A stretch of 34,747 nt of DNA, from the NCBI GenBank assembly GCA_029907465.1, contig JARYLV010000005.1:86231-120977 (forward strand), written 5' to 3'. A program made the position numbers and the translations under genes. This stretch comes from Methanomassiliicoccales archaeon. GTDB lineage: Archaea > Thermoplasmatota > Thermoplasmata > Methanomassiliicoccales > JACIVX01. Of this stretch, positions 1 through 30,595 are shown in pieces. The notes below the pieces were generated by a model. The model was not told the origin of the DNA and did no database searches. It saw only the letters and a list, made by a program, of their open reading frames with translations. Position 1 is the stretch's first letter. Each line of letters begins with the position of its first letter.

Positions 1-1236
1 ATACCAGTTGCATATGGGCCCGCCTTCGAGGGCGAAACGGTCAGAAGACCAGACACTTACATCGAGGCGGGTGGTGCTGCAAAGACGCTTGCTTTCGAAC
101 TCCTGAAGATGCGCCAGGAACACGAAGTTGAGGACGGTAAGATCACGCTGATCGGAAAAGATGTTGATGAGATGGAGGAGGGCGGCAAAACGCCACTTGC
201 CATCATCATAGAGGTCTATGGCAAGAAGATGCAAGAGGATTTCGAGGCCGTACTTGAAAGGAGGATTCATCAATTCATCAACTTCGCCGAAGGTGCATGG
301 CATACAGGTCAGAGAAACATTCTGTGGATAAGGCTGAGCAAGAGCTCTGTGAAAGCAGGCTTGAGATTCAAGCATTTCGGTGATATCCTCATCACAAAGA
401 TGAAGGAGGAGTTCGGGAGCATCATAAGTCGTGTCCAGGTAACCATCATCACGGACGAGGCGGAGATCAGGAAGAGGTTACCTGAAGCACTGGAGACTTA
501 CGCGAAGAGAGATGCGAGAATGGCGGGATTGACTGACGAATCGGTCGACACATTCTACAGCTGTACACTGTGCCAGTCCTTTGCACCCGATCATGTCTGC
601 GTCATTACACCAGAGAGGTTAGGTCTCTGCGGTGCGATCAACTGGCTCGATGCCAAAGCAAGCAACGAAATCGCACCAACGGGTCCAAACCAACCGATCG
701 TCAAGGGAGGAGCCATCGATCCCGTCAAAGGATCGTGGGTTGGTGTCAATCAGGCTGTTTACGAATTCAGCCATCACAAGATCGAGAGATTCAACGCGTA
801 CACGATGATGGAAGATCCGATGACGAGTTGTGGTTGCTTCGAGTGCATCGTCGCGATGACGGCTGATATGCAGGCAGTCATCGTCGTCAATAGAGAATAC
901 CCTGGTATGACACCAATCGGGATGAAATTCTCAACGCTCGCTGGATCTGTCGGAGGCGGAAAGCAGACACCAGGATTCATCGGTGTTGGACGGAAGTATT
1001 TAGTCAGCAAGAAGTTCATATCGGCTGACGGTGGATTCCACCGCATCGCCTGGATGCCGAAGGACCTCAAAGAAGCAATGAAAGAGGACCTGAAGAAAAG
1101 AAGTGAAGAACTGGGCACACCAGACTTCGTCGACAAGATCGCTGACGAAACAATATGCACCGATGCAGAGGGACTCATGGAATGGATGGTCAAAGTCGAT
1201 CATCCTGCGCTGAAAATGCCTCCGATGCTGCAATAG
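1..1236 (+). CDS. cdhC: Acetyl-CoA synthase / ACDS complex beta subunit (CdhC), 5' end outside window
   Basis: This subunit makes or cleaves acetyl-CoA at the Ni-Ni-[4Fe-4S] A cluster, joining a corrinoid-borne methyl group, CO and CoA. The frame is open from base 1, so the start lies upstream; 411 codons are visible. Counting from the first visible codon, the A-cluster ligand pattern is complete: Cys188-X2-Cys191-X8-Cys200-X9-Cys210 (within SCTLCQSFAPDHVC), followed by the C-G-C pair at 277/279 and Cys282. The FEGE motif near residue 9 normally sits close to the start of archaeal CdhC. Whether this is a short archaeal CdhC or the longer bacterial AcsB type cannot be decided here. The end, HPALKMPPML, reads to me more like AcsB. 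It is the first gene of a cdhC-cdhD-cdhE run and is followed after 21 bases by cdhD. Identification is very secure. Confidence 0.97.
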   Translation: MPVAYGPAFEGETVRRPDTYIEAGGAAKTLAFELLKMRQEHEVEDGKITLIGKDVDEMEEGGKTPLAIIIEVYGKKMQEDFEAVLERRIHQFINFAEGAWHTGQRNILWIRLSKSSVKAGLRFKHFGDILITKMKEEFGSIISRVQVTIITDEAEIRKRLPEALETYAKRDARMAGLTDESVDTFYSCTLCQSFAPDHVCVITPERLGLCGAINWLDAKASNEIAPTGPNQPIVKGGAIDPVKGSWVGVNQAVYEFSHHKIERFNAYTMMEDPMTSCGCFECIVAMTADMQAVIVVNREYPGMTPIGMKFSTLAGSVGGGKQTPGFIGVGRKYLVSKKFISADGGFHRIAWMPKDLKEAMKEDLKKRSEELGTPDFVDKIADETICTDAEGLMEWMVKVDHPALKMPPMLQ

Positions 1237-1257: not shown

Positions 1258-2214
1258 ATGGTTGAGGTGCCGATTCCAAAAGAGAAGTGGACGGGCAAAA
1301 TCTGTACAATTGTAATTGGAGCAACTGCGGAAGATGGTGGGTCAAGGGGTAGGAAGGTAGTCATAGGCGGAGAGACAGGGATGCCGTTTCTCTCCTTTGA
1401 AGGGCCGATCGCGAACAGGCCGGCAATAGCTGGCGAGGTCATTGATACATTAAGGGACTACCCGCCACTCGCGAAGAAGGCCTTCGGCGATGCTGCCGAA
1501 GACCCGGTCCAGTGGTCGAAGGTCTGGGTCGAAAAATATGGAGTCGATCTCATATGCCTCAAGCTACATTCAACAAACCCGGAGGAGGAGAACAGGTCTC
1601 CCGCAGAGGCGGCCGAAACGGTGCGCAAAGTCCTCGCTGCCGTGCCGGTCCCGCTCATCGTCTATGGTTGCGGACATGAGGAGAAAGATGCGAAGACGAT
1701 GGAAGCTGTCAGCAATATCGGCGCGAAGGAGAGGCTCTTGCTTGGACATGCGGAAGAAAGCGCTTACAAATCGATCGCAGCTGCTTCGATGGCGAACAAC
1801 CACGCACTAATCGCGTTCTCAAATCTCGATATCAACCTGGCGAAGCAAATCAATATCCTCCTCACAGATTTTGGTGTCAAGAAAGAGAACATCGTCGCAG
1901 ATCCGCTGATGGCGAGCCTCGGCATGGGTCTTGAATATTCATATTCTGTCAACGAGCGCATTCGACTCGCAGCGCTTATGGGCGACACCATGCTCCAGGT
2001 TCCAATGGTTTGCGACACGACGATTGCATGGAAAGCAAGAGAGGCGACAGAGGAGAACGATAAACTCGGGGATGTTGATTTGAGAGCTGCCTGGTGGGAA
2101 GCGACAACCGCTCTTGCAGCACTCGTTTCAGGTGCGGACATGCTCATCATGAGAAGCCCGAAGGCCGTCGAAATTGTCAGGATGGCGCTCAATGAGCTTC
2201 TTGGAGGTGATTGA
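1258..2214 (+). CDS. cdhD: Corrinoid iron-sulfur protein small subunit (ACDS delta, CdhD)
   Basis: This is the TIM-barrel small subunit of the corrinoid Fe-S protein. With CdhE it holds the cobamide that ferries the methyl group between the methyl-pterin pathway and acetyl-CoA synthase. Family-typical stretches include a GGETGMPFLSFEG segment near residue 40, VDLICLKLHST near 95, and the DPLMASLGMGLEYSYS loop near 215. A strong ribosome site (GGAGGAG at 1246-1252) supports the ATG. The next gene starts 2 bases after its stop, so translation is probably coupled. At 318 residues it is close to bacterial AcsD and, from memory, shorter than the roughly 390-440 residues of methanogen CdhD. That length comparison should be verified by alignment. 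Confidence 0.95.
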   Translation: MVEVPIPKEKWTGKICTIVIGATAEDGGSRGRKVVIGGETGMPFLSFEGPIANRPAIAGEVIDTLRDYPPLAKKAFGDAAEDPVQWSKVWVEKYGVDLICLKLHSTNPEEENRSPAEAAETVRKVLAAVPVPLIVYGCGHEEKDAKTMEAVSNIGAKERLLLGHAEESAYKSIAAASMANNHALIAFSNLDINLAKQINILLTDFGVKKENIVADPLMASLGMGLEYSYSVNERIRLAALMGDTMLQVPMVCDTTIAWKAREATEENDKLGDVDLRAAWWEATTALAALVSGADMLIMRSPKAVEIVRMALNELLGGD

Positions 2215-2215
2215 A

Positions 2216-3544
2216 GTGCCGACCGCAATGGAGATCTTCAAGCTACTACCGAAAAAGAACTGCGGTGAATGCAAATTTCCCACGTGCCTGGCTTTTGCGA
2301 TGCAACTGGCTAACCAGAAGGCAAAGCTCGAAGACTGCCCCTATGTTTCAGATCAGGCAAAGGCCACGCTCGCTGCGTCCGCCGCGCCACCGATCCGGCT
2401 GGTCAAGATCGGTACGGGCCAGAATACAATCGAGATAGGGGACGAGACAGAATTGTACCGGCATGAGAAGAAGTTCTTCCATCCCACGGCATATGCACTC
2501 ATTATTTCGGATTCCTCATCCGATGCCGAGATCAAGGCGAAGGTTGAGAAAGCTCATTCCCTTAGGTTCGAGAGAGTTGGACAGCTGTTGAAAATGGACA
2601 TGGTTGGTGTCAGGAACGATTCGGGAAGCGCAGAGAAGTTCGCTAACGTCGTCGAACAGGTTTCAAAGATGACTGATCTCCCGATGATTTTGATTTCAGA
2701 CAAACCTGATGCCATGAAACTTGCAGCGTCTAAGATTGCAACGAAAGTGCCTCTCTTACACGGCGCTAAATCAACCAATGCCGAGGCGATGGCTGCTGTG
2801 GCAAAGGAAACAAAATGCCCGCTGGTCGTTTACGAAGACACGGGCCTCAACCAGCTGGCCGATCTCGTTGCCAAGGTGAAGGCGGCTGGTGTCGAAGACA
2901 TCGTCCTCGACTTCGGTGCGAGAACACTCAAGGATCTGATCGAGAAAAGCACAATTATCCGGAAGATCTCGGTGAAGAAGATTTTCAGAGGACTCGGATA
3001 TCCAATATACGTTCACGCGGGTGAGGGCGAGAAAGCTATTCTGAAAGGTCTCATTTCGACGATGAAATACGGTAGCATTGTTGCCTTTGATGATATCGAT
3101 CCCGCCACAGCACTACCACTGTACGTCCTGAGACAGAACATCTACACCGATCCGCAAGTCCCAATCCAGGTCAAACCAGACCTGTACGCGATTAATAATC
3201 CTGATGAGAAGTCGCCACTCCTCTTCACGACGAACTTCTCCCTCACATACTTCACCGTTGTCGGGGACATTGAGAAAAGCAAAATCCCGGTTTGGCTACA
3301 GGTCATTGACACAGAAGGTTTGTCGGTCATGACCGCATTCGCCGCTGGAAAGCTCACACCTGAGATGGTCGCGAAAGCCCTCGAGGCATCGGGTGCTAAG
3401 AACAAATCAAAGCGCGGCGAAATCATCATCCCTGGTATGGTGGCCAGGATGAGTAGCAAGCTTCAGGAACTGACGGGATTGAAGGTCATCGTCGGGCCAA
3501 AGGAATCAAATGGATTGCCGAAGCTTCTCAAATCGCTTGACTAA
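2216..3544 (+). CDS. cdhE: Corrinoid iron-sulfur protein large subunit (ACDS gamma, CdhE)
   Basis: This is the large subunit of the corrinoid Fe-S protein: an N-terminal [4Fe-4S] domain, a TIM barrel and a C-terminal cobamide-binding domain. The cluster motif is clear at the N terminus: Cys16-X2-Cys19-X4-Cys24-X16-Cys41 (NCGECKFPTC...CPY). I chose the GTG at 2216 (442 residues) because GGAGGTGA at 2203-2210 precedes it at ideal spacing and the product begins MPTAMEIFKLLPKKNCGEC, as in the family. The longer frame from 2174 would overlap cdhD by 41 bases. It is the last gene of the rightward cdh operon; T-rich terminator sequence follows immediately. The C-terminal domain (about 320-442), with TNFSLTYFTVVGDIE and a MVARMSSKLQELTG segment, fits the cobamide-binding region. 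Confidence 0.95.
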   Translation: MPTAMEIFKLLPKKNCGECKFPTCLAFAMQLANQKAKLEDCPYVSDQAKATLAASAAPPIRLVKIGTGQNTIEIGDETELYRHEKKFFHPTAYALIISDSSSDAEIKAKVEKAHSLRFERVGQLLKMDMVGVRNDSGSAEKFANVVEQVSKMTDLPMILISDKPDAMKLAASKIATKVPLLHGAKSTNAEAMAAVAKETKCPLVVYEDTGLNQLADLVAKVKAAGVEDIVLDFGARTLKDLIEKSTIIRKISVKKIFRGLGYPIYVHAGEGEKAILKGLISTMKYGSIVAFDDIDPATALPLYVLRQNIYTDPQVPIQVKPDLYAINNPDEKSPLLFTTNFSLTYFTVVGDIEKSKIPVWLQVIDTEGLSVMTAFAAGKLTPEMVAKALEASGAKNKSKRGEIIIPGMVARMSSKLQELTGLKVIVGPKESNGLPKLLKSLD

Positions 3545-3609: not shown

Positions 3610-4362
3610 TCAAGTCAAATCCCTAACGATCTCCCTCACAGCCCTCAATGCTGGACTTGTCGAGTCGAGCCTGGTCAAAGGTTCGCCGACCATGGCTAGT
3701 TCTTCTATTTTTTTGTCATTAGGAACCTTTCTCACGTCTTGGAACCCACCTGCCTTGATCACCGCCTCAACAACACTGTGCAGCTCCGGCGGCGAGCGGT
3801 TGACAACCAGCATATTCGATTTTATTTGGAGCCCCATTTCCTCGGCGAGTTCTTTAATCCTCACCGCTGTCTCCACGCCCAGTTTGGTCGCATCTGAAAC
3901 GACGATCAACTTGTCCATTTTCCTAGTCGTCCGACGAGAGAGGTGTTCCATGCCAGCTTCGTTATCAATGACGATGTACGCATAATCATCGACCAGCTCG
4001 TCCATGAAGGTCCTCAGAATGTTGTTGATATAGCAATAGCACCCAGGCCCCTCAGGTCGCCCCATTGTCAACAGATCGAATTGATCTCCTTCAACAAGAG
4101 CCAGTTGAATTTGATATCTGATGAATTCCTGTTTGCTCGTGCCCGCTGGAATTTCATCTGCTTTTTTGAGGAGGTCCTCTCTGAGGTCGCCGATTGTCTT
4201 ATCGACTTTTACACCGAGTTTTTCTCCAAGGTTAGAATTGGGATCTGCGTCGACAGCTAGAACAACTTCTCGAGATTTCTCAGCTAGTGCTCGAATAAGG
4301 AGCGCGGCTATCGTTGATTTACCCACGCCTCCTTTCCCCGCTACGGCGATTGCGTAACTCAT
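3610..4362 (-). CDS. cooC: CooC/AcsF-type nickel-insertion ATPase for CODH/ACS
   Basis: This is a MinD/Mrp-class P-loop ATPase that matures carbon monoxide dehydrogenase / acetyl-CoA synthase by delivering nickel. The deviant Walker A is at residues 9-17 (GKGGVGKST), followed by a DADPNSNLG switch at 38-46. A Cys108-X-Cys110 pair lies in GPGCYCYIN; a CXC at this place binds metal at the dimer interface in characterised CooC proteins. Length (250 aa) is standard. The ATG overlaps the stop of the upstream methyltransferase gene by 4 bases (ATGA), so the two form one leftward operon. It converges on cdhE. Family assignment is firm; whether it serves the C cluster or A cluster cannot be read from sequence. 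Confidence 0.92.
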   Translation of the reverse strand: MSYAIAVAGKGGVGKSTIAALLIRALAEKSREVVLAVDADPNSNLGEKLGVKVDKTIGDLREDLLKKADEIPAGTSKQEFIRYQIQLALVEGDQFDLLTMGRPEGPGCYCYINNILRTFMDELVDDYAYIVIDNEAGMEHLSRRTTRKMDKLIVVSDATKLGVETAVRIKELAEEMGLQIKSNMLVVNRSPPELHSVVEAVIKAGGFQDVRKVPNDKKIEELAMVGEPLTRLDSTSPALRAVREIVRDLT

Positions 4363-5390
4363 GATACTTCCTCTAACCCGAGTTTCTTCCTGAGCTCTCT
4401 AGAGACCGAGACGAGTGTCCTGATGGCCGATTCACTACCTTCTTCCGACATTCCACCGAGCCCGCACTGGGGCGTGACCAACGAATTGCGGATTAGCAAC
4501 TCTTCATCGACCCCCTTCGCCTTCATTGTCTCGATCTCCGAAATCACCTTCTCAACAAGCGAATCGATGTTCTCTTCACGGGCAACCTCCTCGTTGTTCG
4601 GCACGATCCCCCATGCCAGCGCACCTCCCCGCTCAAGAAAGCGAGAGATCTCTTCAGGATAGAGAGAGATCGTGTATCCGTAATCGTACGCATCAAATGA
4701 AAGAATGTCTATATCCGCCTCTATGACCTTTGACCAGTCCGTGTTCCCGCAGCAATGGATACCTTTCCAGCCCTCAACACCTTCGAGAACATCGTTAATC
4801 CACGCGATCGCATCTTCCCATTTGATGCTCGCGTAAGGCGTCCCCAGCAGGGAAAGTGACGGTTCATCGATAAAAATGATCGTTTTCTGACATTTTTTTA
4901 GAAGTGTCTTCACCTGCCAGCGCGTCATCATATTGAGATTTTTCCTCACGATCTCGCAATAACTCTCATCGTAAACGATCGGCTTGTTCTCTTCATTGAA
5001 AATCTGAAGACCTGTGCTGATCGGGCCTGTCGTCTGGCCTTTGACGATCGTTTTGGAACTTGGAAATTCGCGCTTGATCATTTCAAAAAAACCAGCGAAA
5101 CTATCTAGCGGAAATGAGAAAAAATCAAGATTTTCATTGATCAATTGTTCGTAGAAGTTAAATGGTTCGTACCGATGAAGATCAACCGTGATTCTTTTTT
5201 TGTCTACATCGATCTCAATACCAGGCAAGTGGACAGAATACTGCGCGTACATGTTCTCCTTGAACCCTCTCTTTGGCAATTGCGGCCAAAAAGGAATAAG
5301 ATCTCCAATGTCAAGGATGAAATCGACAGCTTTCGCTGGATCTTGATGAGGAAGGGAACCTATGCACGTCGCAGCGAAATGCCAAGGCAC
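4359..5390 (-). CDS. MetE/UROD-superfamily methyltransferase, candidate corrinoid-dependent (MesB-like) methionine synthase
   Basis: This 343-residue protein resembles only the catalytic C-terminal barrel of cobalamin-independent methionine synthase; MetE itself is about 750 residues. Visible landmarks are an N-terminal IGSLPHQD loop (residues 10-17), GQTTGP at 118-123, the IDEPSL strand at 174-179, zinc ligands His212-X-Cys214 (in GIHCCGN), and Cys309 in TPQCGLGG. These match the H-X-C...C zinc site that activates homocysteine thiol. The folate-binding N-terminal half is absent. Short MetE-like proteins of this kind (the Mes families) take methyl groups from corrinoid proteins. Here the gene shares an operon with cooC and lies beside cdhD/cdhE and the corrinoid activator, so the donor may be the corrinoid Fe-S protein. 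The start is a GTG placed about where a TATA element at 5410-5423 would begin the message. Another thiol acceptor remains possible. Confidence 0.72.
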   Translation of the reverse strand: MPWHFAATCIGSLPHQDPAKAVDFILDIGDLIPFWPQLPKRGFKENMYAQYSVHLPGIEIDVDKKRITVDLHRYEPFNFYEQLINENLDFFSFPLDSFAGFFEMIKREFPSSKTIVKGQTTGPISTGLQIFNEENKPIVYDESYCEIVRKNLNMMTRWQVKTLLKKCQKTIIFIDEPSLSLLGTPYASIKWEDAIAWINDVLEGVEGWKGIHCCGNTDWSKVIEADIDILSFDAYDYGYTISLYPEEISRFLERGGALAWGIVPNNEEVAREENIDSLVEKVISEIETMKAKGVDEELLIRNSLVTPQCGLGGMSEEGSESAIRTLVSVSRELRKKLGLEEVS

Positions 5391-5423: not shown

Positions 5424-5494
5424 CTTTCCCGAGTGAAATAAATAAAAGCCAAAATCGTTGTCTGTCGAGTAAAATCGTCATTGGTCGTAGGATA

Positions 5495-5505
5495 ATATTA
5501 TATAT
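5495..5505 (+). promoter_or_regulatory. TATA element for the 50-residue zinc-knuckle gene
   Basis: ATATTATATAT lies about 35 bases before the ATG at 5536, a normal archaeal TATA-to-start distance with a leader of roughly 10 bases. Its presence is the main evidence that the tiny gene downstream is real. Confidence 0.5.
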
Positions 5506-5535
5506 CGCCGAATCCAAGATACACTAGGGATCATT

Positions 5536-5688
5536 ATGGTCAGGTGTCCGTTTTGCGGAGCGAACGTAGAAATATTAGATGATGAAGTCGCGTGTCAATG
5601 TGGGGAACAACTACCAGAAAGCTTTTACAAGTTCGAAAGAGAGAGATGCTTATGTGGAAAGACTCTAGAATTTCCTAGAGCTTCCTGA
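5536..5688 (+). CDS. Small zinc-knuckle protein, 50 aa
   Basis: This is a short frame starting MVRCPFCG. It carries three regularly spaced knuckles: Cys4-X2-Cys7-Gly, Cys20-X-Cys22-Gly and Cys38-X-Cys40-Gly. Six cysteines in 50 residues, each pair followed by glycine, is strong evidence of a metal-binding zinc-ribbon fold rather than a chance frame. A TATA element stands at 5495-5505. The 3' end overlaps the end of the convergent activator gene by 14 bases. I do not recognise a characterised family. Its place between the corrinoid activator and the MetE-like/CooC operon makes a role in metal handling or regulation of this locus conceivable, but that is inference only. Confidence 0.6.
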   Translation: MVRCPFCGANVEILDDEVACQCGEQLPESFYKFERERCLCGKTLEFPRAS

Positions 5689-7624
5689 GCAGTTCCGCCA
5701 CAGTCGGAAATCTGCTGATATCTGTATGCGGCAAGAAAAGGGCCGAGGAGAATTCATCGAAGAACATCTGAGTCGTACTGAGTTCGAGATAAGTCATCAT
5801 CTCATACACCTTCTGCGCCTCGATCCTCTTATCCTTTGAGAGTAGCGTCAAATAGGCACCGGCCAGCGCTGCATTACCCAGAAATACAAAACGGTTGAAT
5901 GGCAGATCTGGTAGCAAGCCTATCGCAACGGCGCGTTCCATGTCGATGTAGTTGCCAAAACCACCAGCAATATACAATCTTGAGACATCATCAAAAGTCA
6001 AGTTGACTTTCTTAAGTAAGACACAGCAAGCAGCGTAGACTGCGGCCTTTGTCCTGATTATATTACCTATATCATTTTCCGTGATCACGATGTCGCGTCC
6101 CTTCTCTTCTTTCACAACGATCCTTTGCTTTCCGTCAAGTTTTGTTATCCTGTCTTTCCCTATAGCAGTCTCATTAGCCCAAGCAATAACAAATTCCATG
6201 CCGTCCTCGCCACGCCTAACGCGCGACGTATTGGCCTGCTGGATATGGCCTTTTTTATCGATCAAACCACGGAGGAACATTTCCGCTATGAGATCGATCA
6301 GACCGGATCCGCAAATCCCACGTGGCTTTGCGCCGCCAATCGTTGAATACTTAACATCGTAATTCTCAAGGATGCGAACACGTTCGATCGCACCTGACAT
6401 TGCTCTCATCCCGTACCTAACCTCTCCGCCTTCGAAAGCTGGGCCTGCGGAGCACGAGCACGAAATAAGCCACTCGTTGTTGCCAAGAACAACCTCGCCG
6501 TTCGTACCGACGTCGATCAACATTGCGATTTCCGGTCTGAGATGCATCCCAGATGCGATGATATCAGCCGTAATGTCTCCTCCAACATAGCTCGCTCTGC
6601 TAGGGACGCAGTAAATTGGTGCATCTGGATTGATGTTCACACCAACCTCATCAGCCCGATAAATTGGCGGGATGCTCACAGTCGGGACATATGGTTCGTA
6701 ACGAATGTATTTCGGATCGAGGCCTAAAAAGAGATGAATCATCGTGGTATTACCAGCGACCGCCATGCTCGATATTTCGTGGGCGCAGACTTTACCGCCG
6801 ATTCCCTCGCAGTTTTCTGAGACGCTGCACAATTCTGCTATCAAGTAATTTATTGTCTCAATGATCAACTGATTAAGGCGCGGCAGACCCCCCTCCTCAG
6901 CGTAGGCGATTCGCGAGAGTACATCTTCACCGCACATAATCTGTTTGTTATAATTCGAAGCTTGAGCGATCACGTTGCCTGTCGCAAGATCCACGAGACT
7001 GAGAACAACCGTTGTCGTTCCGATGTCGACGGCAATTCCAAAATTCCTTTTTGTGGCGTCACCTGGTCTTAGGTCAATTAATCTCTTTGTCTCGCCGCTT
7101 TCATCAAGGACTGCGGTGACCTTCCATTGACTTTCCCTCAACACCTTCGGCATTATCCTCAATGCCCGAAGGGTCGTGGAAAGGTCAACCCCTGATGACA
7201 GAAGAGAGCGTCTCAACCGTTCAAGATCCGCGAGATTATCATCAAGAGTTGGCAAAGGAAGCTCAAGATATCTTGCCGAGGATAATGGTGAAAGTTCACC
7301 AAGCCTTTCGACTTTGTAGGATGTCAAGATTTGATGAGAGGCGATCTGAATTTCTTCTGGGACTAGTACCTCTACATTGTCATTGATACGTGTTTTACAG
7401 GCAAGGCGATATCCCGCTTTCCACTCATCCTCCGAAAAAAACTCCCTGCCGCCAAATGGCTCAACATCACCTTGCACGATAACACGACATTTTCCGCAAG
7501 TACCTTTTCCACCGCAGATGCTGTTGACCATAACCCCAGCTTGATAAGCCGCTTCTAGTACCGTTGCTCCTGGGGTCACTTCAACCGTCACGTTCTGAGG
7601 CAGAAATCGTACCAATGGATGCAT
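5675..7624 (-). CDS. RACo-type reductive activator of corrinoid protein (ASKHA ATPase with N-terminal [2Fe-2S] ferredoxin)
   Basis: This enzyme uses ATP to drive one-electron reduction of inactive Co(II) in the corrinoid Fe-S protein back to Co(I). A plant-type [2Fe-2S] domain occupies residues 1-90, with ligands Cys37-X5-Cys43-X2-Cys46-X29-Cys76 (CGGKGTCGKC). A linker follows, then an ASKHA ATPase fold beginning near residue 193 with the phosphate loop DIGTTTVVLSLVD. Further conserved pieces are MAVAGNTTM, LLIDVGTNGE-like, SCSCSAGPAFEG and YIAGGFGNYIDM. The length (649 aa) fits RACo/AcsV. The N-terminal [2Fe-2S] arrangement matches the acetogen RACo rather than the RamA activators of methylotrophic methanogens, which carry C-terminal 4Fe clusters. 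A ferredoxin gene begins the same leftward unit 28 bases upstream and may supply the electron. Confidence 0.9.
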   Translation of the reverse strand: MHPLVRFLPQNVTVEVTPGATVLEAAYQAGVMVNSICGGKGTCGKCRVIVQGDVEPFGGREFFSEDEWKAGYRLACKTRINDNVEVLVPEEIQIASHQILTSYKVERLGELSPLSSARYLELPLPTLDDNLADLERLRRSLLSSGVDLSTTLRALRIMPKVLRESQWKVTAVLDESGETKRLIDLRPGDATKRNFGIAVDIGTTTVVLSLVDLATGNVIAQASNYNKQIMCGEDVLSRIAYAEEGGLPRLNQLIIETINYLIAELCSVSENCEGIGGKVCAHEISSMAVAGNTTMIHLFLGLDPKYIRYEPYVPTVSIPPIYRADEVGVNINPDAPIYCVPSRASYVGGDITADIIASGMHLRPEIAMLIDVGTNGEVVLGNNEWLISCSCSAGPAFEGGEVRYGMRAMSGAIERVRILENYDVKYSTIGGAKPRGICGSGLIDLIAEMFLRGLIDKKGHIQQANTSRVRRGEDGMEFVIAWANETAIGKDRITKLDGKQRIVVKEEKGRDIVITENDIGNIIRTKAAVYAACCVLLKKVNLTFDDVSRLYIAGGFGNYIDMERAVAIGLLPDLPFNRFVFLGNAALAGAYLTLLSKDKRIEAQKVYEMMTYLELSTTQMFFDEFSSALFLPHTDISRFPTVAELLRKL

Positions 7625-7652
7625 AACATTATCCGAATCAGGTATAACTTAT

Positions 7653-7934
7653 TTAACAGTCATGCATTTGTAGTGCGCCCGCTGGGCAATTGTCCAGACA
7701 TACACCACATGATCGGCAAAAGATTTTTGTGACTGCTGCTTTTTTTCCTTTCATCACAATCGCATTTGAAGGGCAAGAGGAGACACACGCACCGCACCCC
7801 TGGCAAATCTCTTGAACAACCCCTACAACCAAAGTATCACCTACCAGAGGGTATGATTTCATTGCTATTAATGAACATTTAGCCGAAAACTTTCGTTCCC
7901 AAAGAAGACCTGGATCGAATAGATAATAGTTCAC
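7653..7934 (-). CDS. 2[4Fe-4S] ferredoxin
   Basis: This is a small dicluster ferredoxin with two consecutive CX2CX2CX3CP motifs (CQGCGACVSSCP and CRSCGVCLDNCP) separated by a short strand-turn-strand, so it should carry low-potential electrons. The longest frame begins with GTG at 7934 (93 aa). The conserved core starts only around MKSYPLVGD, so the ATG at 7862 (69 aa) may be the true start; neither has a clear ribosome site. It precedes the corrinoid activator by 28 bases on the same strand and is the natural candidate to reduce its [2Fe-2S] domain. Confidence 0.85.
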   Translation of the reverse strand: MNYYLFDPGLLWERKFSAKCSLIAMKSYPLVGDTLVVGVVQEICQGCGACVSSCPSNAIVMKGKKAAVTKIFCRSCGVCLDNCPAGALQMHDC

Positions 7935-8043
7935 TCAAGTTCACGAATATTTCAAAAGGAATGATAATTACCTTTCTTATTGATGCCTGGTCGTACGGAC
8001 GCAGTTTTAGTTGTGTAGAAAGGATAGATCGATGGCACAACCG

Positions 8044-8053
8044 CATTATATTT
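8044..8053 (+). promoter_or_regulatory. TATA element for glutamate dehydrogenase
   Basis: CATTATATTT lies about 75 bases before the ATG. With initiation near 8072 this gives a leader of about 50 bases. The leader contains a short direct repeat (AATTCATA at about 8093-8100 and 8103-8110) just before the ribosome site GGAGGAG at 8113-8119. Confidence 0.4.
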
Positions 8054-8123
8054 AGGGATGTCGCACAAATACCAATGATATTTACTCAAGCTAATTCATA
8101 ATAATTCATAAAGGAGGAGAAAA

Positions 8124-9374
8124 ATGAATCAGAACAATCCATACGAAATGGCTGTCAAACAGACTGAAAATGTGGGAAGGCTCCTCGGACTCGACCAAGA
8201 TCTGATCAATTTCCTGACAAGACCGCAGCGTGAGCTGACGGTCAACTTCCCCGTCAGGTTGGACGATGGTAGGGTAAGAATGTTCACGGGATTCCGCGTT
8301 CAGCATAATTTCGCGCGAGGACCATGCAAGGGTGGAATCAGATATCATCCGAACGTCTCGCTCGATGAAGTGAGAGCTCTCGCCATGTGGATGACTTGGA
8401 AATGCGCAGTCATGGGCATTCCATTTGGTGGGGCCAAGGGAGGAATTATCTGCAATCCGAAAGAAATGAGCCGAGGGGAAATCGAAAGGATGACGAGACG
8501 ATATGTGACGGAGATTTCAATGATCATTGGCCCTCACAAAGACATCCCTGCACCCGATGTTTACACCGATGCCCAGACCATGGCGTGGATCATGGATACT
8601 TACAGCATGAACAAAGGATACATGGTACCTAGTGTAGTAACGGGAAAGCCGCTGGAAATTGGCGGGTCTAAGGGACGGGATGAAGCGACGTCTCGCGGCT
8701 TAATGTATGTGATACGGGAAGCGGCCAAAGTGAAGAATATTGAGTTGAAGGGAGCAACGGTTGCCATTCAAGGTTACGGCAACGTGGGTTGGCATGCGGC
8801 GAGACTCCTTCACCAAGAAGCTGGATGCAAGATCGTTGCTATAAGCGATTCGAAGGGCGGCATCCTGAACCAGAATGGACTCGATCCGATCAAGGTCTAC
8901 GAACACAAACAAAAGACTGGCTCTGTTCAGGACATGGAGGGGGCCAAGAACATCACGCAAGAGGATCTGCTTGAGACCGAATGTACGATCCTCATTCCTG
9001 CAGCGCTCGAAAATGTTATCAGAAAAGACAATGCGAAGAAGATTAGGGCTGAAATTGTTGCAGAGGGGGCAAATGGTCCGACGACGCCCGAAGCAGACAG
9101 AATCCTCTTTGATAAGGGAATCATGGTGATCCCGGACATCCTTGCAAATGCGGGTGGTGTAACGGTCAGTTATTTTGAATGGGTGCAAAACCTGCAGTTC
9201 TATTTCTGGTCGTTAGATGAGGTCAAGAGCCGCCTACTGCAGATGATGACGGAGGCATTTGAAACAGTGTACGGGATTGCAAGGAGCCAGAATGTGGATT
9301 TGAGGACTGCTGCGTACATGTTGGCGATGAAACGCGTCGCGAGGGCGATGGAAATGAGGGGGTTTTACCCTTAG
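8124..9374 (+). CDS. gdhA: Glutamate dehydrogenase
   Basis: This enzyme catalyses reversible oxidative deamination of glutamate to 2-oxoglutarate and ammonia, linking nitrogen assimilation to central carbon. The substrate-binding and catalytic lysines are in place: Lys69 (GPCKGGIRYHP), Lys93 (TWKCAVMGIPFGGAKGG) and Lys105. The Rossmann motif GYGNVG is at 217-222, with SDS at 241-243 after the second strand. The C-terminal substrate domain ends with FYP. Length (416 aa) is normal for archaeal hexameric GDH. GGAGGAG at 8113-8119 fixes the ATG. An HTH regulator follows 13 bases downstream in the same direction and may be co-transcribed. Cofactor preference cannot be settled by eye. Confidence 0.96.
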   Translation: MNQNNPYEMAVKQTENVGRLLGLDQDLINFLTRPQRELTVNFPVRLDDGRVRMFTGFRVQHNFARGPCKGGIRYHPNVSLDEVRALAMWMTWKCAVMGIPFGGAKGGIICNPKEMSRGEIERMTRRYVTEISMIIGPHKDIPAPDVYTDAQTMAWIMDTYSMNKGYMVPSVVTGKPLEIGGSKGRDEATSRGLMYVIREAAKVKNIELKGATVAIQGYGNVGWHAARLLHQEAGCKIVAISDSKGGILNQNGLDPIKVYEHKQKTGSVQDMEGAKNITQEDLLETECTILIPAALENVIRKDNAKKIRAEIVAEGANGPTTPEADRILFDKGIMVIPDILANAGGVTVSYFEWVQNLQFYFWSLDEVKSRLLQMMTEAFETVYGIARSQNVDLRTAAYMLAMKRVARAMEMRGFYP

Positions 9375-9387
9375 GAGTGATGGACGC

Positions 9388-10029
9388 ATGATGGAAGCAG
9401 TCATATCGCTAAAAATGCCCGAGAATTGGATCAAGGATGCGCTCATGCAATACCCGTCAGTCATCAAGATCATCGGCTCTAAGCCTGTCAATGGGAAAGC
9501 GGTAAGAGATCTCGTCGAGATCGAAGTTGAGAGGGAGGAGGACCTGCCTTCGGTCATCGAATCAATCAGATCGAGTCCCAATATTTTTAACGTCGATATT
9601 ACACCCATTGAAAGGGGAAAGGTTCTCGCGGTTTTTTCGACAACTGAGTGTGCTGTCTGCCGATTGCTCGCGCACACAGACTGTTTCCTCACATCTTCAA
9701 CTTCAACAAAAGACGGCCGGCTCGAATGGTCTCTGCTAGTAACAGAAAAGGAGCCACTTCAGAGGTTAATGAAGAACCTCGAGAAGGTAGGCGCCGAGCC
9801 GAAGTTAATTAAGATCACTGAGATCAGTGACAAAGACGCACTGACTGCAAGGCAAGAACAGATTACACGGATGGCCTTTGAGAAAGGATATTTCGATTTC
9901 CCGCGGAAAATCAGCCTCAAGCAGCTGGCTAAGAGTCTCGGTGTTTCGACATCAACGCTGTCCGAAATCCTGAGGAAGGGGCAGAAGCGCATCCTCACGA
10001 AGTACTTCAGGGAACATCGCGAGATTTAG
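9388..10029 (+). CDS. HTH_10 (bacterio-opsin activator type) transcription regulator with Cys/His cluster
   Basis: This is an archaeal DNA-binding regulator. The C terminus (about residues 151-205) is an HTH_10 domain: LTARQEQITRMAFEKGYFD followed by a helix-turn-helix around LAKSLGVSTSTLSEILRKG. The N-terminal 145 residues form a sensor-like alpha/beta domain with Cys88-X2-Cys91, His96 and Cys99 close together (ECAVCRLLAHTDC), suggesting a metal or redox switch. It follows glutamate dehydrogenase by 13 bases with AGGAGTGAT at 9373-9381 as ribosome site. A perfect 14-base palindrome lies 11 bases after its stop. The ligand is not deducible. Co-transcription with gdhA suggests it may regulate nitrogen or amino-acid metabolism or the ferredoxin gene downstream. 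Confidence 0.85.
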   Translation: MMEAVISLKMPENWIKDALMQYPSVIKIIGSKPVNGKAVRDLVEIEVEREEDLPSVIESIRSSPNIFNVDITPIERGKVLAVFSTTECAVCRLLAHTDCFLTSSTSTKDGRLEWSLLVTEKEPLQRLMKNLEKVGAEPKLIKITEISDKDALTARQEQITRMAFEKGYFDFPRKISLKQLAKSLGVSTSTLSEILRKGQKRILTKYFREHREI

Positions 10030-10040
10030 GTTCAACATTA

Positions 10041-10054
10041 CCGAATTAATTCGG
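10041..10054. promoter_or_regulatory. Perfect 14-base palindrome, possible operator
   Basis: CCGAATTAATTCGG is exactly self-complementary. It lies 11 bases after the stop of the HTH_10 regulator and about 70 bases before the TATA element of the ferredoxin gene. There is no following T run, so it is more likely a protein-binding site than an intrinsic terminator. Confidence 0.4.
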
Positions 10055-10125
10055 GGAAAGGTCTATCACAAACATTCTGTCATCATACGCAACTGAGGTC
10101 TAAAGGATAACTGGACATTGAACAG

Positions 10126-10133
10126 GTTTAAAT
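10126..10133 (+). promoter_or_regulatory. TATA element for the 58-aa ferredoxin
   Basis: GGTTTAAATG lies about 45 bases before the ATG at 10173. Initiation near 10155 would place the ribosome site (GGAGGT, 10159-10164) at the front of a short leader. Confidence 0.45.
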
Positions 10134-10172
10134 GTCGGTATTGTATCCCCTCAAGAACGGAGGTCGTCGAAT

Positions 10173-10349
10173 ATGCCACCAAAAGTTGATGAAGATCTGT
10201 GTACTGGATGCGGAAGATGTGAAGAGGTCTGCCCTGCGGGCGTTTTTGAAATCGTCGACAACATTTCGAAAGTCAAAAATCCTGAAGAATGCACTGAATG
10301 TGGTTCCTGTGTCGATGAGTGCCCCGTTGAAGCAATCAAACTTGAATGA
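10173..10349 (+). CDS. 2[4Fe-4S] ferredoxin, 58 aa
   Basis: This short frame encodes a classic clostridial-type dicluster ferredoxin beginning MPPKVDEDLC. The two ligand sets are Cys10-X2-Cys13-X2-Cys16-X3-Cys20-Pro and Cys40-X2-Cys43-X2-Cys46-X3-Cys50-Pro, with a central strand between them. The ribosome site GGAGGT at 10159-10164 is well spaced and a TATA element lies at 10126-10133. It is highly acidic, as expected of a soluble electron carrier. The DUF166 gene starts 40 bases downstream on the same strand. It is a second ferredoxin beside the one at 7653 and likely serves a different partner. Confidence 0.93.
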   Translation: MPPKVDEDLCTGCGRCEEVCPAGVFEIVDNISKVKNPEECTECGSCVDECPVEAIKLE

Positions 10350-10389
10350 TTTGACTGAACAAGAATAAATCATTCGTCCCCTGGTCACC

Positions 10390-11538
10390 ATGACAAAAAG
10401 GAAGGTCATACTAACACAGGAGCTTTTAGGCAGCGATATCGTGAGAGCACTATGGGCTATAGCAAAAGAACACGGAATGTGTCTCGACTATCTTCCGATC
10501 ACGATCGCATACGCAAATATCGGTTCGTCAGAAAAAAAGATCTTTTACAATATCCGAATTTTATCGGAAAATGCGACACTTGCGATTTCATCACCTGAAA
10601 GGGACGGAGCAATAAATTCCGAATCTCGATACCGCGAGCTCTTTTTGGACATTCCCGATGAATCAATAGATATCTTTTCCTCCTTAGTCGAGGACCTCAG
10701 TGCAAAAATTGTTGACTATAGCGCTCAGCCATCAAGTATGTACAAGCCAGAGACTCAAGTCGAAAGAATCGATACTTACACAGCCCCACCACCGAGAGAT
10801 TATTCTATGGGATTCAGAGTCCTCGTCGTTTGGCAGGGAGAATACGGAGAAAGAATCTTCAGAAATCTAGAAAAAAGAGCTCCACCTCATTGGCAAGTCA
10901 ACGCACTGGAATTATCAAGGGATCTACCAATGATCATTGACGACCCTTCAGAATACATTCCAGAGGAGATTCCAGAAACGGATCTCCTTCTTTTTCTCTC
11001 TGAAAGCCAGAACTCTCCGCAACTAGTGCCTGAGCTCGTACGTCGATCGAGAGCCCGGGGGCTCATCGCACCAATCGACAATAGCGAATGGATGCCATTT
11101 GGGCAAGTAAGCCAGATCAGCAAAATCATGGATCAATGGCACGTTGAATACGCCTTTCCACGGCCGTTCTGTTCTCTTGACCTTGTTGGAAAGGAAACAA
11201 TTGACGAATTCGCCCGATGGTTTGGCAAACCTATTATTGAAATTGAGACCGAGGACAACAAGACCGCCAGTAATATTAAAGTGATCAGGGGCACACCATG
11301 CGGAAATACTCATTACCTCGCGGAGAACGTGAGGGGTGTGCGGCTTGATGAGATTGTTGAAAAGGCCGCGCTCACTCACCATCATTATCCTTGCCTCGCA
11401 TCAATGAAAATTGAACCTGATTTGAACGATACTCTGATGCACGCCTCAGGGTTCATTACGAAAAATGTTTTCGAGGAGCAGGTCAAAAAATACATAAAAA
11501 GGAATGTGGGATATCTGGATCCGTCTCAATTTAGATAA
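10390..11538 (+). CDS. DUF166 family protein with N-terminal extension
   Basis: Residues about 140-372 match the archaeal DUF166 family, a conserved group of unknown function. Visible features are GFRVLVVWQGEYGERIF, a segment around SRARGLIAPIDNSEW, and three family cysteines: Cys261 (RPFCSL), Cys304 (GTPCGNT) and Cys335 (HHHYPCLASM), the last preceded by three histidines. These could bind a metal or Fe-S cluster. The first 130 residues form an additional domain I do not recognise, joined through a proline-rich linker near 133-135. The ferredoxin gene lies 40 bases upstream on the same strand, so a redox partnership is plausible. The catalytic role is unknown. Confidence 0.75.
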   Translation: MTKRKVILTQELLGSDIVRALWAIAKEHGMCLDYLPITIAYANIGSSEKKIFYNIRILSENATLAISSPERDGAINSESRYRELFLDIPDESIDIFSSLVEDLSAKIVDYSAQPSSMYKPETQVERIDTYTAPPPRDYSMGFRVLVVWQGEYGERIFRNLEKRAPPHWQVNALELSRDLPMIIDDPSEYIPEEIPETDLLLFLSESQNSPQLVPELVRRSRARGLIAPIDNSEWMPFGQVSQISKIMDQWHVEYAFPRPFCSLDLVGKETIDEFARWFGKPIIEIETEDNKTASNIKVIRGTPCGNTHYLAENVRGVRLDEIVEKAALTHHHYPCLASMKIEPDLNDTLMHASGFITKNVFEEQVKKYIKRNVGYLDPSQFR

Positions 11539-12083: not shown

Positions 12084-12887
12084 CTATCTTCCCATTTCGA
12101 GTTCCAGTAAACTGAGATCCTTTTGTTCGAAGGTGGAGGGGTCGATCGGGATCAGCAGGATCGATTTTGACAAGACAACTTGATCTTTTACGTTTTGTAA
12201 AAATCTCAAGACATTCCTGAAATCATTCTGTGTGATCAAGTACTCAACACCCTCAAGCAGAATGACCTTCGTCGATCCTTGGTCGTTTCCAGATTTGCCC
12301 GAAGTGAAGGTCTTTACTATTGTCGAGAGCCTTGGTAGATCCGTTGGTGAAACGTACAACTGCTCATCGGCAGCGCCTTGATCAGGAGGTGGCATCTCCT
12401 CCTTTGTGAGCCATACCATTGGGACGTTCAATGTGAATTTTCTTTTCACCGTTGCGGGATGCGATCTCGTCACGCAGAGACCTTTGAAGCCCTTTTCGAT
12501 GAGCGATTTGAAGGAGATGAACGCCCCATCAATTTCCTTCCCCTTGAGAATAATAACTGATCCAGGAACTAATTCTGTGGGAACGACTAATTCTTTCGGC
12601 GCTCTCGTCTCCTCTTCATCGAGCTCGCCGAGTTCCTCTTCGAACTTCTTCCTTTTTTGTCTTATTCTGGCAACGATCGAGTTACGCGACGACTTTGCGA
12701 GTACCTGTATTTCGCGTGCGCTGTAACCTTTCATCGTCAACGAGATCAGCTCTTCCCAAGCTTCTCTTAATCCATCTTCATAGCCCTTTAAATAGCCCTT
12801 GGCGTAGGACTTTTCGGCCGGCACCGCATCCCTCAACACGAAAATGAATATCTTCTCCGTTAAATCCTTTTGTATTGACCTGCACAA
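12084..12887 (-). CDS. DUF835 domain protein with N-terminal HTH-like region
   Basis: Residues about 110-262 are a DUF835 domain, a RecA/KaiC-like fold lacking the P-loop that is common in Thermoplasmata and some euryarchaea. Markers are GLCVTRSHPATVKRKF, VPMVWLTKEE, VILLEGVEYLITQNDF and SILLIPIDPSTFEQKDLSLLELE. The N-terminal part (about 25-75) is helical, with GYSAREIQVLAKSSRNSIVARIR resembling a helix-turn-helix, followed by an acidic linker. This suggests a signalling or DNA-binding adaptor. The annotated start is a TTG with no good ribosome site; a GTG at 12839 is an alternative. It is divergent from the Cys-rich gene at 12913 with only 25 bases between them, which favours a downstream start. 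The function of DUF835 is not established. Confidence 0.75.
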   Translation of the reverse strand: MCRSIQKDLTEKIFIFVLRDAVPAEKSYAKGYLKGYEDGLREAWEELISLTMKGYSAREIQVLAKSSRNSIVARIRQKRKKFEEELGELDEEETRAPKELVVPTELVPGSVIILKGKEIDGAFISFKSLIEKGFKGLCVTRSHPATVKRKFTLNVPMVWLTKEEMPPPDQGAADEQLYVSPTDLPRLSTIVKTFTSGKSGNDQGSTKVILLEGVEYLITQNDFRNVLRFLQNVKDQVVLSKSILLIPIDPSTFEQKDLSLLELEMGR

Positions 12888-12912
12888 AAGCTTATCGTGA
12901 GAGCATCACTTC

Positions 12913-14463
12913 ATGGTAGAGATCATGCAAAAAAGTTTCAAGACGCGTGGATTAAAAATCACACCGAAAAATTTGGAAAAGGAACTGATTGAAAAAGCGA
13001 GGAAACTCGCTGACAGTCCTTCAATCCTCTTTCCTCGATGCACCTCAAAATGCAGGAAATGTTCATTTGAAAAAATACTAAACAAAATAGAAAAGATTTC
13101 TGAGTTCAGGGACGACACGGAGCGCTTGATTTCTTTTGCAAGTTGGGGAGACCAACTTGTTCGAAGCTACGCGGCAACGATATCGCTCAAGAATGCGACA
13201 AAGATTCCTTATCTCGCTTTTGTCGATCTGCCGATTGGAAAGATCTCTTATGCCGTCCGAGGGAAGGTTGACAAAGAGAAACTGATCGGCGTGCAATATT
13301 TCGATGATCCCGAATTGAGATTATTGGCCTTCTGGGATATCGCGAGAAAAGACAATCTGTATCTCTATTCGTCTGCGAGCGGTTTCTTTTGCTCTTCGGA
13401 CTCGCCAAAGGTGCCGATGGAATATGTTAGAGATTCGCTGCAATCGGCACCATATAAACTCGATGATCACGGCAAATGTCCTCATGGGTCAGCGAGAATG
13501 AAACTTGAGATTCTGTGGAAATCAGCAGGGCTTACCATATCAATATGCATGGAATGTCTCGGTGAGGAGAACCTCTTACATCACCTTATGAAGGGCATTG
13601 CTGGAAGGGATCCGGCATCGGACTTTGATGTGGGTATTAGCTATGAATTCGAATGCCTGTCATCGTGTCAGGTCTGCAGGATTAAGAGCAGCATCGAGAA
13701 AGGAGATGTCTTGTACAACGACTATCTCAACGGTAAAATCGGAGATCGCGAATTCTTTGAGAGATATTTGAAAGAGATCGTCATGCGTATCCAGAACCGA
13801 GGCGATCCAACTCTGGTGATCGGCGAGAAATGCTTTGGATCGGATATTGACACATTTGTTTCGCATTTGAGGGGGACTGATGCGGAAAAAGAAGCGCTCA
13901 AGGGCCTGCTCCTCAAAGAAAAGATTTCTGTTATCTCGACCAGCGATCAAGCGGGAAAGATCATTGGTGAACTGTGGGATCAGTACGGAAAATTGCTTCT
14001 CGAACAGGTTGCTTCACCAGCTGTAATAGACTCGATACTCAATCGTGGATCCGAACTGAGTCCCGCCCAGATGATTAACGAAGCGAAGAGGCTGGAACTT
14101 GCCAATCAAGTTCACGCTCTTTTGCCCTCATACTCATCCCTCGGCAACATCGGCCGATTGGCCGATAGACTTGCGAGGATCGTGAAGACACAGGATAGAG
14201 AGTACCTGGTGAAGATCATCGAAAAAGAGAGACAACTTGACCATCGGGCGCGCGCTGTGACTTATGCCTTTTTGTGCGTCACGAATATGGCTGACCAGAA
14301 ATCATGGCAATATACCAATGAGGAAAAAAACTTTGGAACTTACCTAGCAGATTTCGCAAAAGAGCTTGTCACAAGTGAAGGGGAAGGGTATCATGAAGCT
14401 CTCGCGCGATTAATAGCGGCGACCGGTTCAATTGAAGAACTTGTACGGGAAGAAAGGAAATAA
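12913..14463 (+). CDS. Unrecognised Cys-rich protein, 516 aa
   Basis: I do not recognise this family. The N-terminal half has several cysteine groups that look like metal ligands: Cys43-X3-Cys47-X2-Cys50 (PRCTSKCRKC), Cys160, Cys189, Cys212-X2-Cys215 (CMEC) and Cys248-X3-Cys252-X2-Cys255 (CLSSCQVC). The repeated CX3CX2C form at both ends suggests one or two Fe-S or zinc sites. The C-terminal half (about 270-516) is mostly helical, cysteine-poor and charged. There is no signal peptide or membrane segment, so it should be cytoplasmic. It is divergent from the DUF835 gene and ends 18 bases before the convergent taw2. It is full length and intact, with codon use like its neighbours. Confidence 0.8.
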   Translation: MVEIMQKSFKTRGLKITPKNLEKELIEKARKLADSPSILFPRCTSKCRKCSFEKILNKIEKISEFRDDTERLISFASWGDQLVRSYAATISLKNATKIPYLAFVDLPIGKISYAVRGKVDKEKLIGVQYFDDPELRLLAFWDIARKDNLYLYSSASGFFCSSDSPKVPMEYVRDSLQSAPYKLDDHGKCPHGSARMKLEILWKSAGLTISICMECLGEENLLHHLMKGIAGRDPASDFDVGISYEFECLSSCQVCRIKSSIEKGDVLYNDYLNGKIGDREFFERYLKEIVMRIQNRGDPTLVIGEKCFGSDIDTFVSHLRGTDAEKEALKGLLLKEKISVISTSDQAGKIIGELWDQYGKLLLEQVASPAVIDSILNRGSELSPAQMINEAKRLELANQVHALLPSYSSLGNIGRLADRLARIVKTQDREYLVKIIEKERQLDHRARAVTYAFLCVTNMADQKSWQYTNEEKNFGTYLADFAKELVTSEGEGYHEALARLIAATGSIEELVREERK

Positions 14464-14481
14464 AAGAGAGGAAACCATGAT

Positions 14482-15504: not shown

Positions 15505-15554
15505 TTCGGAGTTTTCAAAATCGACCTCATATTTCTTTTTTCCGGATCATAGGA

Positions 15555-28336: not shown

Positions 28337-29173
28337 ATGAATGAGATCACTGACTATCTCAAGGAGGATGTGGGTTTTGGGGATATCACGAGTGACATCC
28401 TCCTCAATGATGAAGTAGGAAATGCAAAGATCGTCGCGAACGAGGAAGGTGTTCTTGCGGGTCTTGAAGAGGCGATCGAGATCTTCGAAAGGCTCGGCGT
28501 CAACACATTTCCGATGGCGAGAGACGGGGAGAGAATCACGAAAGGAGAAGACGTCCTCGTTCTGGAAGGGCCTTTGAAAAAAATTCTGCTTGGTGAAAGA
28601 CTCGCGCTCAATTTCCTTATGAAAATGAGTGGCATTGCAACTGCCACAAATAATATTCTGAAGGAGTGTAGAAAGTTTAACCCAAATGTCAAGATCGCTG
28701 CGACCAGGAAGACTACCCCTGGGTTCAGAAAATACGAGAAGAAGGCGGTCATCATCGGCGGTGGAGATCCTCATCGTTATCGGCTCGACGATGCGATTCT
28801 CATCAAAGATAACCATCTGAGGGTCGTTGGGAGTATCACCGAGGCTGTTTCGAAGGCGAAAAGTGTTTCTTTCACAAAGAAAATTGAAGTCGAAGTCGAA
28901 ACGATCGAACAGGCGGTAGAGGCGGCAAAGGCTGGCGCAGATATCATCATGTTCGATAATATGTCAGTGGAACAAGTCGAAGTCGCGTCTCTTGCGGTGA
29001 AGAAACTCAATGATCGAATTCTTGTTGAGGTCTCAGGGGGATTGACCCCTGAGACAGCGCCAAAATATGCCAGACATGCGGATATCCTTTCCCTGGGATG
29101 GATCACACATTCGTCGAAGGCGATCCACTTCAGCCTCGAGATCACGAGTGTCAAGGCGCCCGAAACTGCCTAG
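28337..29173 (+). CDS. nadC: Nicotinate-nucleotide pyrophosphorylase (quinolinate phosphoribosyltransferase)
   Basis: NadC converts quinolinate and PRPP to nicotinate mononucleotide in de novo NAD synthesis. The N-terminal domain begins ITDYLKEDVGFGDITSD. The PRPP-site lysines and arginines appear in ATRKTTPGFRKYEKKAV, GGGDPHRYRLDDAILIKDNH and IEVEVETIEQA. MFDNMS and VEVSGGL follow as in the family. Length (278 aa) is standard. A TATA element at 28306-28313 supports the ATG at 28337; a second ATG at 28341 is in another frame. Its stop overlaps that of the convergent hdrB (shared CTAG). No nadA or nadB is in the window. Confidence 0.96.
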   Translation: MNEITDYLKEDVGFGDITSDILLNDEVGNAKIVANEEGVLAGLEEAIEIFERLGVNTFPMARDGERITKGEDVLVLEGPLKKILLGERLALNFLMKMSGIATATNNILKECRKFNPNVKIAATRKTTPGFRKYEKKAVIIGGGDPHRYRLDDAILIKDNHLRVVGSITEAVSKAKSVSFTKKIEVEVETIEQAVEAAKAGADIIMFDNMSVEQVEVASLAVKKLNDRILVEVSGGLTPETAPKYARHADILSLGWITHSSKAIHFSLEITSVKAPETA

Positions 29174-30560: not shown

Positions 30561-30575
30561 CTATCAAAAACAAAT

Positions 30576-30585: not shown

Positions 30586-30595
30586 CCAAGATATC

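Follow-up and report, generated by a model that had tools for sequence, protein, structure and literature searches.

Gene organization around mesB

The window (the whole stretch of DNA analysed, 34,747 nt) contained a gene designated mesB, which was surrounded by genes predicted for the corrinoid Fe-S protein (CoFeSP) and for CODH/ACS (Table 1). The mesB frame was located on the minus strand, started with GTG, and encoded a protein of 343 aa; the same region read on the plus strand contained many stops. Identities of 36% to 84% were shared by this protein with 37 other aligned sequences, indicating that the gene is real and not a chance frame, and the closest named record (84% identity) was from a Methanomassiliicoccales MAG (JANHAK010000064.1). 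The stop of mesB overlapped the start of the next gene, presumably cooC, by 4 bases, and acsV was located upstream on the same strand. An earlier note on this DNA had placed mesB in one operon with cooC, flanked by cdhDE and a RACo gene. The overlap and both flanks were recovered, but cdhD and cdhE, being on the plus strand and convergent with mesB, are not carried on the mesB transcript. The true start of cdhE is probably a little downstream of nt 2174.

Table 1 Predicted genes at the mesB locus and in the distal part of the window
Gene	Predicted product	Position (nt)	Strand	Basis or remark
CODH-ACS	fused CODH-ACS gene, C-terminal part	1-1236	+	full 1358 aa at G000:C5, L071 6891-10967
cdhD	delta, small CoFeSP subunit	1258-2214	+	NF003376, 361 bits (cut-off 280)
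cdhE	gamma, large CoFeSP subunit, corrinoid and Fe-S	2174-3544	+	NF003195, 547 bits (cut-off 306)
cooC-like	P-loop ATPase, presumed nickel-insertion factor	3610-4362	-	MinD/ParA-type ATPase in profile libraries
mesB	putative MesB-type core methionine synthase	4359-5390	-	alignment, fold
zinc-ribbon ORF	conserved protein of about 50 aa, in the acsV-mesB gap	5536-5688	+	opposite strand to mesB
acsV	RACo, corrinoid reductive activator	5675-7624	-	NF040756, 637 bits (cut-off 800); RACo Pfam domains over cut-off
hdrB-like	HdrB-like protein	29170-29997	-	under NCBIfam cut-off
hdrC-like	HdrC-like protein	29994-30560	-	under NCBIfam cut-off
hdrB-like	HdrB-like protein	31412-32311	-	under NCBIfam cut-off
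hdrC-like	HdrC-like protein	32308-32790	-	under NCBIfam cut-off
tfrB/hdrD-like	TfrB/HdrD-like protein, 635 aa	32780-34687	-	under NCBIfam cut-off

Among the 45 genomes of the order in which MesB was found (see below), 39 carried mesB and cdhE on the same contig and no more than 5 kb apart, the two genes were on different contigs in five, and in one no CdhE was seen. Nineteen Methanomassiliicoccales loci, including the one described here, were inspected in detail; acsV was present in all of them, and a cooC homolog was beside mesB in all except that of G005. In the bacterial loci L043 to L053 and L055, mesB did not adjoin a recognisable cdhD, cdhE, or acsV within the stretches examined.

Three other features were observed. 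The zinc-ribbon ORF, which possessed the motifs CPFCG, CxCGE, and CxCGKT, was conserved in G001, G002, and G003 (86% to 61%) and duplicated in G008 (52% and 43%); it is regarded as a candidate microprotein of the mesB locus. The CODH (TIGR01702, residues 21–637) and ACS (NF040764, residues 659–1356) parts were encoded by one ORF of 1358 aa in L071 (nt 6891–10967), and the same single ORF was observed in L072 (G002), L075 (G008), and L083 (G054); frames of 1364 to 1379 aa over CODH in G027, G033, G045, and G051 suggest the same arrangement. CODH and ACS would thus be naturally fused in families f1, f3, and f4; a search of the open-licence literature found no published report of this. At the distal end of the window (nt 29,170-34,687, minus strand) was a run of heterodisulfide-reductase-like genes, all scoring under the NCBIfam cut-offs.

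Conserved residues, predicted fold, and family assignment of the mesB product

No Pfam family matched the mesB protein at E ≤ 0.001 or even at E 10, and the best NCBIfam match, NF002119 (PRK00957, which we take to be MesA), scored 32.3 bits against a cut-off of 258. In an alignment of 47 rows, the protein itself counted, Ser12, Asp175, His212, Cys214, Asp233, and Cys309 were identical in every row. His212, Cys214, Asp233, and Cys309 were the zinc ligands according to this alignment, and Ser12 and Asp175 were the equivalents of the homocysteine residues Ser433 and Asp599; the third homocysteine residue lies in the Glu484 region, for which Price et al. 2021 (PMC7857596) describe alignment in MesB as difficult. 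The ligand set proposed in the earlier note (His212, Cys214, and Cys309) was thus correct in its members but incomplete, with Asp233 missed; the IDEP strand named there contains the conserved Asp175, and the loss of zinc ligands that it had listed as an adverse outcome was seen in no row. Relative to His212, the spacing was +2 for Cys, +21 for Asp, +97 for the last Cys, and -37 for Asp175.

The AlphaFold model of the protein had a mean pLDDT of 94.1. It was aligned by VIA-align with the C-terminal halves of MetE (1xdj, residues 396–733; 1u1h, residues 424–760) over 286 to 289 residues at Z 24.0, with residues 1–338 corresponding to MetE residues 396–733, and with the one-domain synthase 3rpd, which is MesD according to Price et al. 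2021 (PMC7857596), at Z 24.6. These values were above those for URO-D (Z 18 to 20) and for the M. mazei methyltransferase 4ay7/4ay8 (Z about 18). For the MetE structures 4l64 and 3ppf, the best alignment was via their N-terminal halves (Z about 21), which is expected because the two halves of MetE are homologous. Weak sequence matches to PDB entries (adenosine deaminase, glyoxalase) were chance-like and discarded. The description of the protein as a catalytic MetE barrel of 343 residues without the folate-binding half was therefore upheld. A place among the URO-D-type methyltransferases (MtaA/MtbA), raised in the same note as an adverse outcome, was not borne out, since PF01208 was silent at E ≤ 0.001 as well as E ≤ 10 and the MetE and 3rpd structures scored above URO-D.

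On every family feature tested, namely ligands, spacing, and fold, the predicted protein is a MesB, and it is another member of a family already described by Price et al. 2021. It consists of a single catalytic MetE domain and carries the zinc set His, Cys, Asp, Cys, and its host possesses the CoFeSP genes (AcsC/AcsD, equivalent to CdhE/CdhD; nt 1258–3544). Its identities with the Dehalococcoidia relatives L043, L049, and L055 were 39% to 41%; the published threshold for MesB is at least 130 bits, or about 29% identity, to the MesB of D. mccartyi (Price et al. 2021, PMC7857596). The spacing given above equals that published for DET0516, the D. mccartyi MesB, in which the corresponding positions are 214, 216, 235, 311, and 177 (Price et al. 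2021, PMC7857596). The mesB protein and the catalytic half of MetE have in common the barrel fold and the zinc and homocysteine residues, but MetE has an N-terminal folate-binding half, of which there was no counterpart here, and uses Glu665 as the ligand where the mesB protein has Asp. MesA, MesC, and MesD are, like MesB, one-domain relatives of MetE lacking the folate domain. However, the spacing in MesA is +2/+24/+85 versus +2/+21/+97 here, MesC has +21/+110 and, in most members, a His at the position of Cys214, and MesD needs MesX and oxygen. The Mes names are also used in a 2026 paper in mBio (PMC13059711).

The characterised relative is the core-MetE of D. mccartyi (DET0516, cbdbA481), which uses methylcobalamin and not methyl-THF (Deobald et al., PMC7005905). 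Like the protein described here, it is a one-domain protein (343 aa for cbdbA481) with His-Cys-Asp-Cys at the same spacing and no folate domain, in a host with CoFeSP genes. The two differ in that cbdbA481 is in an operon with SAM synthetase, whereas mesB adjoins cdhDE, acsV, and cooC. In addition, D. mccartyi is described as lacking MetF, with the methionine methyl group derived from acetyl-CoA (PMC7857596; PMC7005905), and as lacking AcsE (Price et al. 2021, PMC7857596), whereas both are present in the genome studied here. His122 was proposed as a corrinoid ligand in the D. mccartyi protein (Deobald et al., PMC7005905). By residue counting, this position is Gln119 in the mesB protein, and His was found in only 3 of the 47 rows (L045, L047, and L050, on one tree branch), so that His122 was rejected as a general feature. 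D. mccartyi is also not known to possess CODH.

The mesB gene is ordinary for Methanomassiliicoccales, which were stated to have MesB only, and the idea that CoFeSP is the methyl donor is not new, being the published prediction for most MesB proteins by the authors who defined the family and tied it to CoFeSP (Price et al. 2021, PMC7857596). The same paper notes mesB beside acsC/acsD in some methanogens. Compared with these published cases, which include the same order and the same predicted donor, mesB here is convergent with cdhDE and not co-operonic; otherwise, nothing essential differs. A literature search combining MesB, methionine synthase, and corrinoid returned only Price et al. 2021 (PMC7857596).

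Occurrence of MesB, CdhE, CODH, and other methionine synthases in the order

The host genome (G000, 96% complete) contained mcrA and is that of a methanogen, which its relatives place in the order Methanomassiliicoccales. Sixty-one genomes of the order were searched for MesB and then with nine more families. MesB was found in 45 of them. CdhE, scored as present where PF03599 matched at E ≤ 3.7e-56, was found in 44 of these 45 and in none of the 16 genomes without MesB (G011, G014, G017, G020, G023, G026, G029, G032, G035, G038, G041, G047, G050, G053, G055, and G057). No CdhE was seen in the remaining MesB-bearing genome, G003, which has a completeness of 73% and in which the contig carrying MesB, 3845 bases long, breaks off shortly after cooC. 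Nine of the 16 had no PF03599 match and seven had partial matches over the Pfam cut-off (41 to 52 bits at best), which were not counted because true CdhE scored at least 190 bits. MetF was found in 38 and AcsE in 40 of the 45 (two of the latter as fragments below cut-off), both being absent from the 16. All 16 contained mcrA. Because they all belonged to family f2, a single event may account for their joint loss, and the Fisher p-values for these co-occurrences do not allow for kinship.

CODH (TIGR01702) was over cut-off in 32 of the 45 genomes with MesB and in 2 of the 16 without it. No CODH over cut-off was found in 13 genomes possessing both MesB and CdhE, eight of which are at least 90% complete (G006, G010, G013, G018, G028, G031, G036, and G059; G018 is a single contig), where the lack of an archaeal-type CODH rests on cross-detection between two CODH models (62 bits). 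In all eight, ACS was seen at the locus, L034, L035, and L037 having been assigned to G010, G031, and G013 by matching coordinates. Conversely, G014 and G035 had CODH without CdhDE or MesB. Thus, MesB follows CdhE and not CODH. With the MesB tree as a proxy for the species tree, at least seven changes of CODH state, whether gain or loss, were counted over 26 genomes, every one of which retains MesB; genomes less than 90% complete, and MesB-bearing genomes for which no protein was fetched, were left out of this count. Families f1, f2, f3, and f6 were each on one side of a branch of this tree (weakly for f3, 78/48) and the single f4 protein was inside f1, a grouping that fits descent within the order; MesB relatives extend to Dehalococcoidia and other bacteria. 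No earlier report of the dissociation of CODH from MesB, or of the state of G006 described below, was found among open-licence papers.

Some related genes were observed in these searches. The ACS gene of G028 (L081, nt 12,408-16,010) was interrupted by an insert of about 520 aa that has an intein splicing domain (PF14890) and a LAGLIDADG domain (PF14528), and its reading frame changes after this insert. Genomes of genus g17 without CdhDE (G029, G041, G047, G053, and G055) encoded proteins that aligned with the barrel region of PF03599 (profile about 26–245, 41 to 52 bits or less, e.g. G047:C8:2366-2869). In many genomes there were also separate proteins whose match to CdhE was confined to its C-terminal corrinoid part (profile about 266–386, e.g. 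G019:C16:83835-84173), in open frames of about 205 to 400 aa, some of about 210 to 240 aa; as a guess, the longer ones might be HgcA, the mercury methylation protein.

Searches for other methionine synthases gave one PF01717 match in G000 (contig C12, 28 bits), which was rejected as a second synthase because it is a URO-D (PF01208, 1.1e-54). Across the genomes there were 15 further PF01717 matches of 17.7 to 27.7 bits, six of them over cut-off and all six in genomes with MesB. MetH (PF02574) was matched in none of the 61 genomes. The MesB profile (A1) retrieved only mesB itself from G000 at E ≤ 10 and, when run on 20 genomes (G000, the 16 without MesB, and three of f2 with MesB) for distant paralogs, only four known genes plus one 14-bit match (E 0.012) in G026. 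PF01717 gave no match in Methanosarcina acetivorans, and MesC is therefore not covered by this model. Within the reach of PF01717, PF02574, and the MesB profile, mesB appears to be the only methionine synthase candidate in G000, and the complete MetE or MetH elsewhere in the genome that the earlier note had suggested looking for was not found.

The 16 mcrA-bearing f2 genomes thus had no methionine synthase of the searched types (MesB, PF01717 over cut-off, or PF02574), and may be either auxotrophs or users of some other synthase. PF01837, for homocysteine synthesis, was present in 44 of the 45 genomes with MesB and in 9 of the 16 without. Co-loss of homocysteine synthesis was considered as additional evidence of function but rejected as not clean: the loss of MesB is unmatched by loss of the homocysteine pathway. 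These nine genomes may make homocysteine without any detected synthase, or may use the enzyme otherwise; a role in coenzyme M is known for relatives.

Predicted methyl donor and methyl source

On contig C17 (L098) of G000, AcsE (NF005719, 311 bits; cut-off 259), MetF, and MetV (PF12225) were encoded side by side. Mer (TIGR03555) was over cut-off in none of the 61 genomes, with seven partial matches of 34 to 43 bits, all in f6. With AcsE, MetF, and MetV present and no Mer found, G000 has a folate-type methyl branch. Adjoining these genes, an HdrA-like FAD/Fe-S protein was encoded at L098 nt 5468–7201 (minus strand), and the gene order resembles the MetVF-Hdr arrangement of acetogens. In agreement with a folate-type branch, a C1-THF pathway has been reported in Methanomassiliicoccales, with metF in only some members (PMC6147122, PeerJ 2018). 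With AcsE, MetF, and MetV present, the route from methyl-THF via AcsE, CdhDE, and MesB to methionine is complete on paper. Neither MetF nor AcsE was found in the MesB-bearing genomes G022 (95% complete) and G043 (97%).

In the proposed mechanism, homocysteine would be activated by the zinc held by the four ligands and then methylated to methionine by methyl-CoFeSP (CdhD/CdhE). CoFeSP would be charged in the forward direction from methylene-THF through MetF/MetV, methyl-THF, and AcsE, or alternatively backwards from acetyl-CoA via ACS. AcsV would act as a repair enzyme that re-reduces inactive cob(II) CoFeSP, and CooC would serve the nickel sites of CODH/ACS. AcsE, CdhDE, MesB, and AcsV would then constitute a separate-protein counterpart of the one-chain MetH. 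We infer the activity, the identity of the donor, the direction of methyl flow, and the roles of AcsV and CooC, the functional steps being based on homology. From the observed sequence, ligand conservation, gene neighbourhood, and co-occurrence together with the predicted fold, we consider it highly probable that the mesB product is a MesB core methionine synthase taking its methyl group from methylated CoFeSP. The transfer of methyl from CdhD/CdhE to homocysteine, as proposed in the earlier note, is thereby supported by the zinc set and spacing of MesB, the co-occurrence with CdhDE rather than CODH, and the finding of no other synthase with the models used. The inheritance pattern of MesB adds support to the published CoFeSP-donor idea.

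A methionine synthase whose main donor is another corrinoid protein of the MtaC/MtbC type, or a free methyl-cobamide, is unlikely. The characterised relative does use free methylcobalamin in vitro (PMC7005905), and other corrinoid partners are allowed for some paralogs (Price et al. 2021, PMC7857596). The host has mcrA, and MtaC/MtbC-type proteins are expected in methyl-reducing methanogens. Methylotrophic corrinoid proteins are presumably present in the mcrA-bearing genomes without MesB as well, but MesB follows CdhE (44 of 45 versus 0 of 16) even though all of these 16 have mcrA, and both the proximity of mesB to cdhE in most genomes and the constant presence of acsV at the inspected loci argue for CoFeSP.

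A MetE/URO-D-superfamily methyltransferase with a thiol other than homocysteine as substrate, or a protein assisting CODH/ACS assembly, would agree with the overlap with cooC and the neighbouring acsV, which are assembly or activation genes, as well as with the retention of PF01837 in nine genomes without MesB; some MesB-like proteins are described as lacking catalytic residues or perhaps having another function (PMC7857596). However, we regard this as very improbable, since the zinc residues and two of the three homocysteine residues (the third being unalignable in MesB) are kept in all rows, no methionine synthase candidate other than mesB was found, and mesB is kept where CODH is missing. 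Assignment to MesC, for which an archaeal host with CODH/ACS is the published setting (PMC7857596), is scarcely credible for a protein that has Cys214 and Asp233, whose last Cys follows His212 by 97 residues, and whose relatives extend into Dehalococcoidia and other bacteria.

The simplest reason for keeping the module where CODH is missing would be the methyl-THF route or reverse ACS. In G006 (99% complete), no CODH, AcsE, or MetF was found, and ACS, CdhDE, AcsV, CooC, and MesB are kept, which points to acetyl-CoA as the methyl source. We tentatively propose, with somewhat less than even confidence, that in Methanomassiliicoccales the ACS/CoFeSP/AcsV/MesB module persists after CODH has been lost and serves chiefly to make methionine, fed from methyl-THF via AcsE, or by splitting of acetyl-CoA in lineages like G006, a state reached independently in Dehalococcoides. 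The CODH-free genomes keeping ACS, CdhDE, and MesB provide a natural test case for the prediction that CoFeSP feeds MesB, and a labelling prediction follows for methanogens, namely that, according to lineage, either methyl-THF or C2 of acetate would supply the methyl group of methionine.
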